From: a virus
Direction: 5' to 3' (one strand)
IMG/VR virus record: IMGVR_UViG_3300043788_000065
Span: 1 to 47,686 of that record
DNA: 47,686 nucleotides
Shown here: one piece after another, positions 13,955 through 44,083 of the stretch
Layout of the letters: every line of letters begins with the position of its first letter
How positions within the stretch are numbered: position 1 is the first letter of the stretch
Program-made: the position numbers and the translations under genes
Notes under the pieces: model-generated
The model's input: only the letters and a program-made list of their open reading frames with translations
Database searches by the model: none
Told to the model about the DNA's origin: nothing

Positions 13955-16441
13955 TCAGGTCCCGTTAGCCATGACAACCCAGTCAGTACCGTCAGACACA
14001 AGCAGCGCCCAAGCCCCCGCCGTGGCAGGCAAAATAGCCGTGCCGGCGGTCGCCGAGCTGATCGGGCGCACGTTCGACGAGGCGCTCACAACGGTGAACG
14101 CAGCAAGGGTTTTCACCAACAGCTCGCGGCCGGGGTAGGTCCCCGCGGCCAACAGCGTGAGCGTGATGCTCGCGGTCCCGTTGAAGATCAGGTACGTGTC
14201 GGTGTTGAGCGCCGAATAGTTCGCCGTCTTCGTCGCGGTCACGGCGCGCGCCAAGCCGCCGTTCACAGTCAGAGACGTGTGGCCTGAGACTGCCGCGGCG
14301 GTGAGCCCGCTCGACGCCACAGTGAAGTATGTGGTGCCGGCGATTTGCAAAAAGATAGAACCGGCTGACGCCACGTTGTTGACGTGGACGTTGGATGAGT
14401 TGGCGACGGTGTCCTGCCAGATCTGGAAGTCCGACGTATTCTGCACCGCGCCATCGCCCATGATACTCATGCCGCCAGCGAGGCCAGAGCTGGTCGGCAC
14501 TTTGATCGTGAAGGGCGGCGTGGCACCCGCGGCAGCCGTGTCGTTGACCACAACGGCCCCGACGCTACTGATCGACATGATGAGCGCGCTGTCGGTGTAG
14601 AAGTTCAGCGCCGCTGCGCCGACAGTGCCGATACCGAGCGGATCGCTGGATGCAGATACAAGATTCCAGCCGTTCGCCAACAGCGCGGTGTTCCACCCGA
14701 AGCGCAGGTTGCCGGCAGCGCTCGTAGACCCTAAAGTGAGCACGTCCAAGCCGGCAAGACCGTCGATGGTCGCCGCGACTCCACTCGTCGGCGCATTGAT
14801 CGTGACGTTGCCGGCGTTTGCGACCTTCACGCGCGCGGTGCCGGAACCTCCTGTACCGATGTAGACCGCTCCGCCGTTGGACGCGATGCCAATGTCGCTG
14901 ATCGTGGAGCCGGCAATGGCCCAAATTCCCGTACCGATCCATCCGGGAGATGTCGAGCCGTTAAACCACTGGATGCCGAAGCCGTCTGTAGGCGTAGTCG
15001 GCCCCACAAGGCTGACGTTGGTGTCATCGAGCAAGTTGACCGTCAGTGCGTCACCGCTGGCGGGGAGAGCGATGATCCAATCGCCGGTTGCTGTGATCTG
15101 CCCTGCGTAGGTGTTGCTCGTGCCGAACACCAACGGGATAGCGCCGAGCGTGCGCAGCGTAGCCTGCGGCCCGGTGGGACCTTCTGTGATGATGGCGGTT
15201 GTGTTGTTTTGGTTGGCACAGAACAGCGCCACCTGTTCGCTGCCGGCGCCGATGTAGATGCGCGCATCATCACCAGCGGTCGTGCTGTTGTTCTGCACCG
15301 CAAGGTTGAGAGTAACGCCGCTGATAGTATTCAGCAGTTCAACCGGAGTGCTACCGCCTTGGAAAATCTGCTGCGCTGACCAAACATTGAGGTCACACAC
15401 GAGCGCGCCGTCGCGCACCGGCATTTCTTCTTCGTAGTCGAAGTCGAGGTATGCTGCCCATCCGCTTCCGCCGGCACTGCTCGAGCCCGGTACACCCTGT
15501 GCTCCCTGCGGCCCGGTAGCGCCCGTCGGGCCAGGGACGATCAGCGGGTCGTCTGGGTCCTGTACCTCGAAGATGATCGGCACACCGACCGTTCCGGTAG
15601 CGCCGGTCGGGCCGACAGGCCCAGGGATGACGATAGAGTCTTGCGGCTCATCGACCTCGAAAATAAGCGGCACGCCGAAGCCGCCCTGTGCGCCCGCGGC
15701 TCCCGCGGCGCCAGCAGCGCCAGTCGGGCCGGGAATGACGACTGCGTCCTGCGGCTCGTCCATCTCGAAGATTAGAGGCACGCCCAGGGCTCCCTGAGCG
15801 CCCGCGGCGCCGGCAGCGCCCGCAGGCCCCACCGGACCGGGGATCGGCTGTGGCGGGTCCTCAGCTTCTTCCAGCGTCCAGTAAACGGCCGGGCCGATGC
15901 CGCCCGACACGCCGTTGGAGCCGGGAGGCCCCTGAATACCAGGCGGCCCAGGGACCGGCGGAGGGGGGTCCTCTGGTGAGTCCTGCTCGAACCAGATCGC
16001 CGGTCCTGCGCCGCCCTGTGGACCCGGCGATCCGGCAGCACCGGCCGCACCGGCGGGTCCTGGTACGATCAGCGCGTCATCCGGGTCCTCCGCTGTGAGA
16101 TGGATCACAGTCGACACGCCAGCCGGCCCGCGCGGGCCGGCAACCGGGATTACCAGCGGGTCCTCGAGATCGTCCTGCTCGATGAACCGCGGCGGGTACG
16201 TCACCGACGGCGGGACGTTCTGCACGAGCGACCAGATGATCGGCGTGCTCGGGAAATTGCCGCTGGTCTGGATGACTTGCTGCTGGAACTCGGCGGCCAG
16301 CTCAGCGAGCGTCGGCACGCTCCCGTCGGGGAGCTGCACGTTGACTCCCAGGATCGCAGCGGCAGCCGTAGCTACCGGCAGGCGCACGGAGCGGCCGGAG
16401 GCAGTGCCCTTGACCGGGACGCGAATGCGACTACCCGCCAT
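13955..16441 (-). CDS. Tail fibre with collagen-like repeats
   Basis: 828 residues. Residues 1-82 form an N-terminal attachment region. Residues about 83-320 hold seven units of a short beta/acidic segment followed by Gly-x-y triplets. The remaining 500 residues are beta-rich, as in phage fibre shafts, and the extreme C-terminus (LLVSDGTDWVVMANG) is a typical fibre end. Collagen-like triplets in phage fibres are known to trimerise. It should be the receptor-binding or host-contact fibre. No intramolecular chaperone peptidase motif is evident. Confidence 0.82.
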   Translation of the reverse strand: MAGSRIRVPVKGTASGRSVRLPVATAAAAILGVNVQLPDGSVPTLAELAAEFQQQVIQTSGNFPSTPIIWSLVQNVPPSVTYPPRFIEQDDLEDPLVIPVAGPRGPAGVSTVIHLTAEDPDDALIVPGPAGAAGAAGSPGPQGGAGPAIWFEQDSPEDPPPPVPGPPGIQGPPGSNGVSGGIGPAVYWTLEEAEDPPQPIPGPVGPAGAAGAAGAQGALGVPLIFEMDEPQDAVVIPGPTGAAGAAGAAGAQGGFGVPLIFEVDEPQDSIVIPGPVGPTGATGTVGVPIIFEVQDPDDPLIVPGPTGATGPQGAQGVPGSSSAGGSGWAAYLDFDYEEEMPVRDGALVCDLNVWSAQQIFQGGSTPVELLNTISGVTLNLAVQNNSTTAGDDARIYIGAGSEQVALFCANQNNTTAIITEGPTGPQATLRTLGAIPLVFGTSNTYAGQITATGDWIIALPASGDALTVNLLDDTNVSLVGPTTPTDGFGIQWFNGSTSPGWIGTGIWAIAGSTISDIGIASNGGAVYIGTGGSGTARVKVANAGNVTINAPTSGVAATIDGLAGLDVLTLGSTSAAGNLRFGWNTALLANGWNLVSASSDPLGIGTVGAAALNFYTDSALIMSISSVGAVVVNDTAAAGATPPFTIKVPTSSGLAGGMSIMGDGAVQNTSDFQIWQDTVANSSNVHVNNVASAGSIFLQIAGTTYFTVASSGLTAAAVSGHTSLTVNGGLARAVTATKTANYSALNTDTYLIFNGTASITLTLLAAGTYPGRELLVKTLAAFTVVSASSNVRPISSATAGTAILPATAGAWALLVSDGTDWVVMANGT
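15482..16195 (-). repeat. Seven-unit collagen-like repeat array inside the fibre gene
   Basis: Each unit of about 26-41 residues reads (hydrophobic)4-[E/D]-x-P-x-D-(hydrophobic)-P-G-P followed by several G-x-y triplets rich in Ala, Pro and Gln. The two most similar units share VPLIFE-x-DEPQD. At DNA level the units are recognisable as imperfect direct repeats. Confidence 0.8.
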
Positions 16442-40354: not shown

Positions 40355-40494
40355 GTCGTTGGGGCCACCCCGTTTAAGCGGCCCGCTGTTCCCAGGAAAT
40401 CCCCCCTCCCCCGTCTGCGAGCGCCCCGTCAGTGCGCGTGCCGCCTTGGCGCGGTCAGCGGTGCGCATTATGGCAAACGCGGCGAGCTGGCAGC

Positions 40495-40554
40495 GTTGAA
40501 CGGTCATTCAACCAAGGCCGTCAGCGCTGCGCGAGCGTTGAATGAGCGTTCAAC
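40495..40554. promoter_or_regulatory. Two identical-half-site palindromes (operator or enhancer pair)
   Basis: GTTGAA-N6-TTCAAC occurs twice, at 40495-40512 and 40537-40554, 42 bp apart (about four helical turns), each preceded by AGC. Such pairs bind dimeric regulators. They lie about 65-125 bp upstream of the sigma-54-like element at 40618, the usual distance for enhancer-type activator sites, and just upstream of a weak leftward -10. Confidence 0.7.
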
Positions 40555-40617
40555 GGACAGCGATTTGCAGTAGCGAGAAACGTTGCCCGGCCAGTCGCGA
40601 TTTAGACTCAGTCCAGC

Positions 40618-41379: not shown

Positions 41380-41726
41380 TCTGCCGGTGCAGCGCGTGCG
41401 GCGAGTACTACGACACGCGCTTTCCCGTTCTCAAGCTGCACGCGAGCGGCGCGTGCCGCACCCTTTTTAACATCGGCGGCGCGTTGGTGGCGCCTGTCGT
41501 CGGTGCATCCAACAGCCACCACGGAGATTGCAAGATGTACGTCTATCGTAAGGAGTCTGAGGGTTCCTTCGCCGTTGGGTACTTCGATCCCAACGGGGAG
41601 TGGAAGGTCGCGAGCCGCCACAACACGCGCAATGCCGCACAGCGCCGCGTCAACTACCTGAACGGCGGCACGGGCGGATCGCCGCCCCCGGTCAACGACA
41701 GCGTAACGGGGGGACGCGATAGCTAA
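41376..41726 (+). CDS. Small early protein with two possible starts
   Basis: From TTG 41376 (overlapping the previous stop, GAGGAG at 41362-41367) it encodes 116 residues. The first 53 form a possible zinc motif (ICRCSACGEYYDTRF, ACRTLF). From ATG 41535 (GGAG at 41523-41526) it encodes a 63-residue protein of a widespread small-phage type (MYVYRKESEGSFAVGYFDP, EWKVASRHNTRNAAQRRVNYLNGG). Either one fused protein or two proteins from one frame may be made. Confidence 0.6.
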   Translation: MICRCSACGEYYDTRFPVLKLHASGACRTLFNIGGALVAPVVGASNSHHGDCKMYVYRKESEGSFAVGYFDPNGEWKVASRHNTRNAAQRRVNYLNGGTGGSPPPVNDSVTGGRDS

Positions 41727-41801: not shown

Positions 41802-43097
41802 ATGACACCCGCAGTATTTGGAGTCCTGCGGCGCGCGATCACAGCGTGCCGCTTGCGCGTTTGGAACCGCGACCGAGGGCGCGACGCTTACTACTTCCAG
41901 CGTCGAGAGGACGAGTCGAGCGGCCCGCTGCTCGCGGTCACGGACGCCGAGCGCGAGGCTTTTAACTTCGATAACCCGACGCACGTTGTAGTGAGCGGCG
42001 GGACGCTCGAATTTTTCGACAGCGAGCCGAGCTGTTGCGAGCACTGCGACGAGTGGGCGCCGCTCGACGGGTTCGCGGAGGTTCATAGGCTTGGGAGCCG
42101 TGGCAATCATAGCGTCGTCGGTACGGAAATGTGGTGCGAGCACTGTCAGATCGCCGACGCCACGCGCACAGAATCGGACGACGAGCTGTGGCGCGACTCC
42201 GACGTGGTAAGCGTCGACGGCGGCAACCGGATTGTTTCTGTCCCCTACGCTCGCGACCACTACTACCAGGACAGCGACGGCGATTGGCACAGCGAACCGC
42301 CGGGGGATTACGAAACCGACGACGCCGACGCGGAGGACTCCGGCGCGCTCTATCCCTACGGCACCAACATCTTAGGCAAGCTCGACTGGCCGGAGAACGC
42401 AAAGCGCGAGGCGCTCGTTTTCGGCGTCGAGCTGGAAGTCGAGCCAGTCGATTACAACACGCACGATCAAATCGAGCTGGCGCGCGCGCTTGGCGGACGG
42501 CGCGGCGATGGTTATATCCTCGCGGCGGACGGTTCACTCGAATACGGCGTGGAAATCATCACGCTCCCGCAGACGCTTGAGCAGCATCACACGGGCGCCG
42601 TGGTTCACTGGCGCGAAATCACAAAGCGCCTCGCGGAGAAGAAAGCGCGCAGTGGCCAAGGCACCGACAGGTGCGGCATGCACGTTCACATCAACAAACG
42701 CGCGCTGTCGGCGCTCACAGTCGGCAAGATGCTTGTCTGTGTGAACAGCGACGAAATGCGCCCGCTCGTTGAGCTGGTAGCGCAGCGCTCCGAATCGCAG
42801 TATGCGCAGCGCAAGCCGAAGAAATTCACGGACGCACTCGCCGACGACGGCACGCACTACGACGCGCTCAACATCAGCACGGAGCATGACACGCTTGAGC
42901 TGCGAATCTTTCGCGGCAACACGCGCTATTCGCGCGTCATGAAAAATCTGGAATTTGCGCACGCGCTGTGCATCTACTGCCGGGACGCGAGCATGCAAGA
43001 CGTAACTAAGCCTGAGCTGATGCGCGCTTGGATTTGCGCGCGGCCCGCGATCTACCCGCATCTGTCCAAGTACCTTACCGAACGCACCGAGGACTAA
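41802..43097 (+). CDS. Amidoligase-family (COOH-NH2 ligase) enzyme with N-terminal zinc ribbon
   Basis: 431 residues from the ATG with AGAGGAG 9 bases upstream; an ATG at 41739 adds 21 residues but lies in the hairpin region. The N-terminal part has CEHC at 79-82 and 112-115, a zinc-ribbon. The C-terminal part has the glutamine-synthetase-fold amidoligase blocks: FGVELEVE (207-214), DGSLEYGVEIIT (243-254), GMHVHIN (292-298), ELRIFRG (366-372) and a following helix. Such enzymes use ATP to form an amide on a carboxylate. A class II glutamine amidotransferase lies directly downstream. Confidence 0.82.
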   Translation: MTPAVFGVLRRAITACRLRVWNRDRGRDAYYFQRREDESSGPLLAVTDAEREAFNFDNPTHVVVSGGTLEFFDSEPSCCEHCDEWAPLDGFAEVHRLGSRGNHSVVGTEMWCEHCQIADATRTESDDELWRDSDVVSVDGGNRIVSVPYARDHYYQDSDGDWHSEPPGDYETDDADAEDSGALYPYGTNILGKLDWPENAKREALVFGVELEVEPVDYNTHDQIELARALGGRRGDGYILAADGSLEYGVEIITLPQTLEQHHTGAVVHWREITKRLAEKKARSGQGTDRCGMHVHINKRALSALTVGKMLVCVNSDEMRPLVELVAQRSESQYAQRKPKKFTDALADDGTHYDALNISTEHDTLELRIFRGNTRYSRVMKNLEFAHALCIYCRDASMQDVTKPELMRAWICARPAIYPHLSKYLTERTED

Positions 43098-43102
43098 CCA
43101 AC

Positions 43103-44083
43103 ATGTGCCTTATCGCATTTGTTCCAAAGGGCGCGGCGATCCCGCGCGACATTTTCAATCACGCTGGCCGGATCAACGACGATGGCTACGGCGTGATGAG
43201 CGTAGAGCGTGGCGTCGAGCGCTTTTACGGGCGCAAGGCGAAGAAACGCGCCCGGCGCTACTCTGAGCTGTTGAGCGGCGAAGGCATCCCGCACGCGGTG
43301 CATATGCGCTACGCGACGCACGGGCGCCCATCGCTTGAGCTGTGCCACCCGTTCACTACCAAAGGCGAACACCCGGCGCACGTCATGCACAACGGTGTGT
43401 TGCATGAGCTGACAGCGTTCACTAGCGCCACGGAGAGTGACACATCGCTCTTTGTCGACATGCTCGATGACGTGCCCGCGCCTGTCGCCCCAGGTGAGGA
43501 CTCGCCTTACTGGGGGATGGTGCGCGAGCTGATCGGCACCGATAACCGTATGGTCGTGCTGCACGGGGAGAGCTTCTTTATCCTCAACGAGAAGCAAGGC
43601 ACATGGCGCGACGGTGTTTGGTACTCCAACGCCTACAGCTTGCCGCACACCTACGACGACAGCGGATGGGATGATTGGCTCGCCAAGCGTCGCGAGAGCG
43701 CGCTTATCCCGTTCAATGAGCCGTACAACACGCCAGTCGGACAGACGTACGACTTGCGGCCCGAGTCCACCGCAGGCGATTACGGGTACGCCATCGGCAA
43801 GCGCTATAACCCGGTGTTGCTGCGGTGGGAGTACCCGCACGACAAGGTGCCGATGCCGAGCGGCCCGACGCTCGATGCGGACCCGCTGACGATTGACGAG
43901 CTGCGGATGCTGCGCGAGCTGGACATGGCCGACGACTACTACGACGCCGACCACGACACGCGAGCCACCATGCGCGCGGAACTGCGCGCCATGATGACGC
44001 CCGACGATGAGGATTACGCACTGAGCGAAGCAGAGTCGGAAGGCATGTTGCCCGCGTGGGGAACTGTTAGGGAGAGCGAGTAA
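43103..44083 (+). CDS. Class II glutamine amidotransferase
   Basis: 326 residues starting MCLIAF, so Cys2 becomes the N-terminal nucleophile after Met removal; GAGGA precedes the ATG. Ntn-hydrolase signatures: GRINDDGYGVMSV (22-34), HMRYATHG (67-74), CHPF, the MHNGVL oxyanion motif (95-100) and ESDTS with D113. The C-terminal 150 residues are unlike standard family members and acidic. It would release ammonia from glutamine for the adjacent amidoligase, a pairing described for amidoligase operons in bacteria and phages (Aravind group). Confidence 0.87.
   Translation: MCLIAFVPKGAAIPRDIFNHAGRINDDGYGVMSVERGVERFYGRKAKKRARRYSELLSGEGIPHAVHMRYATHGRPSLELCHPFTTKGEHPAHVMHNGVLHELTAFTSATESDTSLFVDMLDDVPAPVAPGEDSPYWGMVRELIGTDNRMVVLHGESFFILNEKQGTWRDGVWYSNAYSLPHTYDDSGWDDWLAKRRESALIPFNEPYNTPVGQTYDLRPESTAGDYGYAIGKRYNPVLLRWEYPHDKVPMPSGPTLDADPLTIDELRMLRELDMADDYYDADHDTRATMRAELRAMMTPDDEDYALSEAESEGMLPAWGTVRESE

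Follow-up and report, generated by a model that had tools for sequence, protein, structure and literature searches.

An amidoligase and a glutamine amidotransferase form a near-obligate two-gene lineage in diverse phages and are a candidate glutamine-dependent amide synthase

Introduction

To our knowledge, amidoligase and glutamine amidotransferase (GATase) genes are recurrent in phages, and since about 2009 the roles given to them have been speculative only. In phages phiEco32, LUZ24, tf and UFV-P2 they belong to a cassette, named the 'peptidoglycan modification cassette', that also contains a COOH-NH2 ligase, an ATP-grasp protein and a gamma-glutamyl cyclotransferase (PMC3890496; PMC5498523). 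A modification of the cell wall was proposed for phages of the phiEco32, RIO-1 and LUZ24 types (PMC5498523; PMC10580990). The Planctomycetes phage ZRK32 carries an amidoligase, a GATase, a glutathione-synthase-like gene and a gamma-glutamylcyclotransferase, for which a role in nitrogen metabolism was suggested (PMC10945688). Glutamine-dependent amidation of the wall exists: it is performed by AsnB/LtsA and by MurT/GatD. The latter, a glutaminase and a ligase whose genes share an operon, amidate lipid II and provide a precedent for a two-gene amide synthase (PMC6736417).

Adjacent genes from these two families, ordered as in the window, were annotated earlier in the Methylophilales phages MEP401 and MEP402 and in Caudoviricetes sp. 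MW202733. A weaker match is the gp105-gp106 pair of Mycobacterium phage Marvin. The pairs of MEP401/402 and Marvin were discussed earlier as auxiliary genes of unknown function. The locus analysed here lies in a window of 47,686 bases, which is the whole of an IMG/VR virus record.

Results

Sequence and structure of the amidoligase

A first-pass annotation of the window had proposed a GS-fold amidoligase next to an Ntn-type amidotransferase. Both genes were found in place, and their families and predicted folds bore this out (Table 1).

Table 1. Features of the amidoligase-GATase locus in the window
Feature	Position	Strand	Description
Amidoligase (PF12224), GS-fold ligase	41802..43097	+	431 aa; catalytic part approximately residues 200-425
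Zinc-ribbon-like N-terminal region of the amidoligase	42033..42149	+	CxxC at residues 79-82 and 112-115; limits uncertain
Amidoligase/GATase junction	43086..43105	+	Shine-Dalgarno-like GAGG within the end of the amidoligase gene, followed by the ATG of the GATase gene
Class II (Ntn) glutamine amidotransferase	43103..44083	+	326 aa; MC start, Cys2 nucleophile

The amidoligase gene has a good ribosome-binding site (AGAGGAGTTGACGACGATG) and its product matched the Pfam family with an E value of 4e-8 (33.8 bits against a gathering cut-off of 22). The motifs FGVELEVE (residues 207-214), CGMHVHIN (residues 291-298) and ELRIFRG (near residue 370) were present exactly, and DGSLE and GVE were further motifs of the catalytic part. 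An alignment with 10 relatives revealed G208, E210, E212, D243, E251, C291, G292, H294 and H296 as invariant. The GS-type catalytic motifs (ExE, GxHxH and ExRxF), which include those for metal and ATP, are present. The HVH residues, whose loss in close homologues would have counted against the first-pass annotation, lie within a CGxHxH motif that was present in 66 of 73 non-redundant amidoligases.

The model of the protein had a mean pLDDT of 74, with values of 80-97 for most of the catalytic part. Comparison of this model with the PDB by Foldseek returned YbdK (1r8g, E 2e-5) as the top match, followed by glutamine synthetases, PafA, Dop and GmaS; the TM scores were low (approximately 0.3-0.4), so that the fold class is supported and the detailed relation less so. 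No significant match was obtained when the amidoligase profile was searched against PDB sequences, and fold comparison alone gave matches. The model thus has a GS-like fold, and the structural outcome that would have refuted the first-pass annotation did not arise. YbdK, glutamine synthetase and PafA/Dop share the GS-type ligase fold with the amidoligase but have low identity to it (approximately 10-13%) and lack a paired glutaminase.

Two CxxC knuckles, C79/C82 and C112/C115, make up the putative zinc ribbon; they are kept in relatives and lie in a region with a pLDDT of approximately 75-91. At least one CxxC precedes the catalytic domain in 66 of the 73 non-redundant amidoligases and at least two do so in 44 of them. 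A zinc-ribbon-like extension, which the first-pass annotation had picked out as noteworthy, is therefore the rule of the family, and the idea that it is special to this phage was rejected.

Sequence and structure of the GATase

The GATase is composed of a catalytic domain (residues 1-183) and a variable acidic tail (residues 184-326). Taken alone, the protein stayed below the Pfam thresholds (PF13230, E 0.007; GATase_4, 15.8 bits against a cut-off of 23), which we attribute to the limited sensitivity of the Pfam model, since a family profile did make the connection. This profile matched the glutaminase domain of E. coli GlmS with an E value of 2.5e-10, and among 45 family members 25 matched GATase_4 and 20 matched GATase_6. 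Residues M1, C2, N25, H67, R69, T72, G74, H82, H96-N97-G98, S112 and D113 were invariant in these 45 sequences and align with the GlmS glutaminase site; for M1 and C2 this has to be read with the selection of relatives by an MC start, the one recovered ORF without MC being cut at its 5' end. R69, T72, H73, HNG and SD, which align with the glutamine-binding set of GlmS, were invariant or nearly so. The model reached a pLDDT of approximately 97 across the catalytic residues and matched GlmS (1xff, E 2.8e-6) and PurF and, more weakly, EgtC (E 2e-3). The invariance of C2, HNG and SD and the matches to GlmS and PurF bore out the assignment as an Ntn-type amidotransferase with a Cys2 nucleophile.

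The unusual acidic C-terminus pointed out in the first-pass annotation did not hold as a distinctive trait. Long and mostly acidic tails occur throughout the family, and they are neither alignable nor confidently folded. The tail was rejected as a conserved feature of the sequence, although its acidic composition is common.

EgtC is a hydrolase that removes gamma-glutamyl groups and its presence among the Ntn matches means that the GATase need not donate ammonia. On this basis the two proteins could act in succession, the amidoligase joining a carboxylate to glutamate or another amine, which an EgtC-like Ntn gamma-glutamyl hydrolase would then remove or trim; the GS fold serves glutamate/amine ligases and PafA/Dop too. 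We regard such an add-and-remove function as improbable, in view of the GATase profile and best structural matches, which are the glutaminases GlmS and PurF, and of the conservation of the GlmS-type glutamine-binding residues.

Co-occurrence of the two genes in viruses

Viral loci were first chosen by the amidoligase alone and the GATase was then searched independently. A GATase was adjacent in 75 of the 84 loci chosen in this way, and 8 loci end within 400 bases, so that among loci with room the proportion was 75 of 76. The remaining locus contains a divergent adjacent GATase that fell below the stricter cut-off. In the reciprocal selection by GATase, the amidoligase was adjacent in 64 of 70 loci, three others being located at a contig edge and three being without it, which corresponds to 64 of 67 loci with room. 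The three loci lacking a recognisable adjacent amidoligase (L107, L112 and L117) represent three GATase lineages; at the amidoligase locus of C. difficile phage AR1086-1, in turn, no GATase was matched. The earlier suggestion that the two enzymes fit together is by this reciprocal adjacency far better backed, as a functional coupling, than at first reading.

The loci were collapsed to 66 divergent groups, with GATases less than 60% identical between groups. The amidoligase family was present in 63 of these groups, the next commonest neighbour family in 14 and any other in at most 8. A survey of gene neighbours in homologous phages, as advised in the first-pass annotation, accordingly showed a near-constant pair among non-conserved neighbours. 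There was no third conserved partner across the 66 groups, which means that the pair should suffice for its own reaction. Pairwise distances of amidoligases and GATases were correlated (r 0.72, the largest value of 500 shuffles being 0.19); this two-protein comparison, to which shared phage ancestry may contribute, shows co-inheritance rather than contact. Four loci (L108, L109, L114 and L121) have two amidoligases, the second approximately 3 kb upstream of the pair, and L108 and L109 have a second GATase as well.

The GATase start lies 5 bases after the amidoligase stop, and the layout of the junction suggests that the two genes may be translationally coupled. In relatives the median gap between the genes was 22 nt and 21 of 138 pairs overlapped; no fusion of the two genes was seen among them.

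A search of 84,980 genomes with short sequence patterns, which cannot prove absence, retrieved no amidoligase and one GATase. At the sensitivity used, the lineage of the pair thus appears to be almost missing from cellular genomes. The only match in the cellular collection (L169, 6001-8973; a 283-kb contig of an uncultured bacterium) is a GATase of the family without amidoligase, with GroES- and GroEL-like genes directly downstream; the contig may derive from a jumbo phage that was binned with bacterial sequence.

YbdK, the top structural match of the amidoligase model, is a gamma-glutamyl-cysteine ligase. This agrees with a reading in which the pair would make a small amide, similar to glutamine or glutathione, and help the host to assimilate nitrogen, as suggested for ZRK32 (PMC10945688). 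Such a metabolic role seems to us a poor candidate, for the cyclotransferase is absent from the window, the N-terminal CxxC extension suggests a macromolecular target, and the pattern search yielded no bacterial relative of the amidoligase, unlike what is typical of host-derived metabolic genes.

Comparison with described systems

The GATases of MEP401/402, MW202733 and Marvin grouped with the window GATase in one tree, and the window clustered with its nearest kin in both the amidoligase and the GATase tree. Identity between these pairs and that of the window was only approximately 23-31%, and the Marvin amidoligase is divergent, without an exact CGxHxH motif.

The window resembles the phiEco32/LUZ24/tf/UFV-P2 cassette in having a PF12224 amidoligase near a class II GATase in the replication-side region of a phage genome. 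However, the COOH-NH2 ligase PF14395, which was detected in the positive controls UFV-P2 and phiEco32, was absent from 49 of 50 records of the lineage and its loose kin, and gamma-glutamyl cyclotransferase (GGACT) was absent from 47 of the 50 and found in 3; the window lacks both. As for the ATP-grasp member of the cassette, the survey of neighbours in 66 groups gave no recurrent third gene. A branch of approximately five changes per column separates the cassette GATases from the window family. The cassette amidoligases also stand apart in their tree, where long branches call for caution, and are without the CxxC N-terminus that window-type amidoligases usually possess. The missing partners and the separate clades in both trees led us to reject a stripped-down form of the LUZ24/phiEco32 cassette. 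In Stenotrophomonas phage StenR_269 (L003/L171), an amidoligase and a GATase of the cassette type occur together with a separate small GATase of the window type, behind which lie a GS-like ligase and an ATP-grasp-like gene. The gene content of this phage suggests that the cassette and the window-type pair are two systems and makes it a natural case in which to compare them.

These differences bear on the wall function proposed for the cassette. The pair could amidate peptidoglycan precursors in the infected cell, at the alpha-carboxylate of D-Glu or the epsilon-carboxylate of mDAP, and in this way alter the wall against superinfecting phages or tune lysis, as proposed for the phiEco32-type cassette. 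Besides the known enzymes of glutamine-dependent wall amidation, the lysozyme-type endolysin encoded by the window phage is in line with this function, since it cleaves the glycan and would still work on a wall with modified stem peptides. In a P. aeruginosa phage evolved by directed evolution, missense mutations were found in an amidoligase and an adjoining aminotransferase-like gene (PMC11450229), a hint that genes of this kind have some importance in infection. Against it, PF14395 and GGACT, the defining partners of the cassette, are absent from the window. In mycobacterial peptidoglycan both sites already carry amides, so that the product of the divergent pair kept by Marvin would be redundant there, and a CxxC/zinc-ribbon targeting region would not be expected in a lipid II enzyme. 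On balance, amidation of the envelope is rather unlikely.

The pair shares with MurT/GatD the logic of two genes for a glutaminase and an ATP-dependent ligase, but is not a member of that system. Its glutaminase, GatD, is of the triad type and its ligase, MurT, belongs to the Mur ligases, whereas the window proteins have Ntn and GS folds. The glutaminase domains of GlmS, PurF and AsnB likewise use a catalytic Cys exposed after removal of Met; in these enzymes a sugar, PRPP or adenylating domain is fused to them, while the synthetase of the window is a separate GS-fold protein.

Genomic context of the pair

The left part of the window encodes a family A DNA polymerase, an SNF2-type helicase and a Prim-Pol primase on the + strand, the middle part packaging, head and tail genes on the - strand, and the right part, from approximately 41 kb to the end of the record, a second + strand block. 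A terminal repeat was looked for in the window and none was found. When the ends (47686/1) were joined, one reading frame ran through and was still open, and the record may therefore be a complete permuted genome in which the right block may continue into the replication genes, an arrangement resembling that of phage MEP401, whose pair sits a few genes ahead of primase, helicase and polymerase. The placement of the pair in an early region, as presumed in the first-pass annotation, is plausible because it lies on the + strand, divergent from the late genes, and because of the position of the MEP401 pair upstream of replication genes.

Scans for sigma-70 promoters and terminators gave sites no more numerous than in shuffles. 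A 19-nt inverted repeat (95% complementary, 24-nt gap) at 40494-40555 occupies the divergent intergenic region between the - strand late arm and the + strand arm of the pair and is a possible operator. The - strand segment 35984-39700, upstream of the terminase gene, contains a glycosyltransferase-like gene (PHROG 1962), its possible paralogue without Pfam match and an FkbM methyltransferase, an unusual cargo for late genes. A tail fibre protein with long collagen-like G-x-y repeats is encoded at 13955-16441, also on the - strand.

The flanking ORFs that the first-pass annotation had described around the pair (Cys-rich proteins, a 40-aa membrane protein and a lipoprotein-like protein) are present, but none travels with the pair, and they are not part of the unit. 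Neighbouring ORFs were rejected as parts of the system, since the single one to recur is a small upstream protein of 45 aa, shared by three loci of the close lineage. This protein (MYVYRKESEGSFAVGYFDPNGEWKVASRHNTRNAAQRRVNYLNGG..., 41535-41726 in the window, and in L012, L095 and L096) is the sole conserved upstream neighbour in close relatives and had no Pfam or PHROG match. Neither the amidoligase nor the GATase matched the PADLOC-DB models, and a reading of the pair as a defence system was dropped.

Discussion

We consider it likely that the two proteins are the subunits of a glutamine-dependent amide synthase, with the GATase supplying the ammonia that the ligase uses. The identity of the domains, their folds, the conserved catalytic residues, the near-obligate pairing and the lack of any other conserved partner are observations, from which we infer that the proteins form a complex, that ammonia passes between them, that an amide is made, and on what kind of target. 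The absence of fusions, and the three GATase lineages and the AR1086-1 locus without a recognised partner, speak against this reading. No biochemistry on any member of the pair was found in the literature searched.

In the proposed reaction, Met1 would be removed from the GATase and its N-terminal Cys would split glutamine hydrolytically into glutamate and ammonia, the latter of which would pass to the adjacent GS-fold amidoligase, which would use ATP to convert a carboxylate of the substrate into an acyl phosphate and then into a carboxamide. A macromolecular target is probably picked by the zinc-ribbon-like region at the N-terminus of the ligase, and it is this region that argues for a macromolecule at all. 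A host or phage protein or peptide is tentatively favoured over lipid II, at somewhat below even chances. A peptidoglycan precursor ranks next, as a doubtful choice, and a small molecule or nucleic acid is less likely. The most specific form of the proposal is that an autonomous, essentially virus-only two-gene system of very different phages post-translationally amidates protein carboxyls (Glu/Asp side chains or C-termini) on a host or phage target chosen by the zinc ribbon; taken as a whole, this is rather unlikely.

Both families were known, similar pairs had been annotated before, and the family itself is already recognised. What is new is the definition of a distinct near-obligate two-gene lineage that is spread over very different phages. 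As the lineage comprises exactly two near-obligately linked genes and is distinct from the multi-ligase cassette, what has to be explained shrinks to a reaction of two proteins, which can be rebuilt in vitro. Were the target a protein, the pair would carry out a type of phage-made modification that is undescribed as far as we found in the literature; were it the wall, the pair would be the smallest phage equivalent of MurT/GatD.
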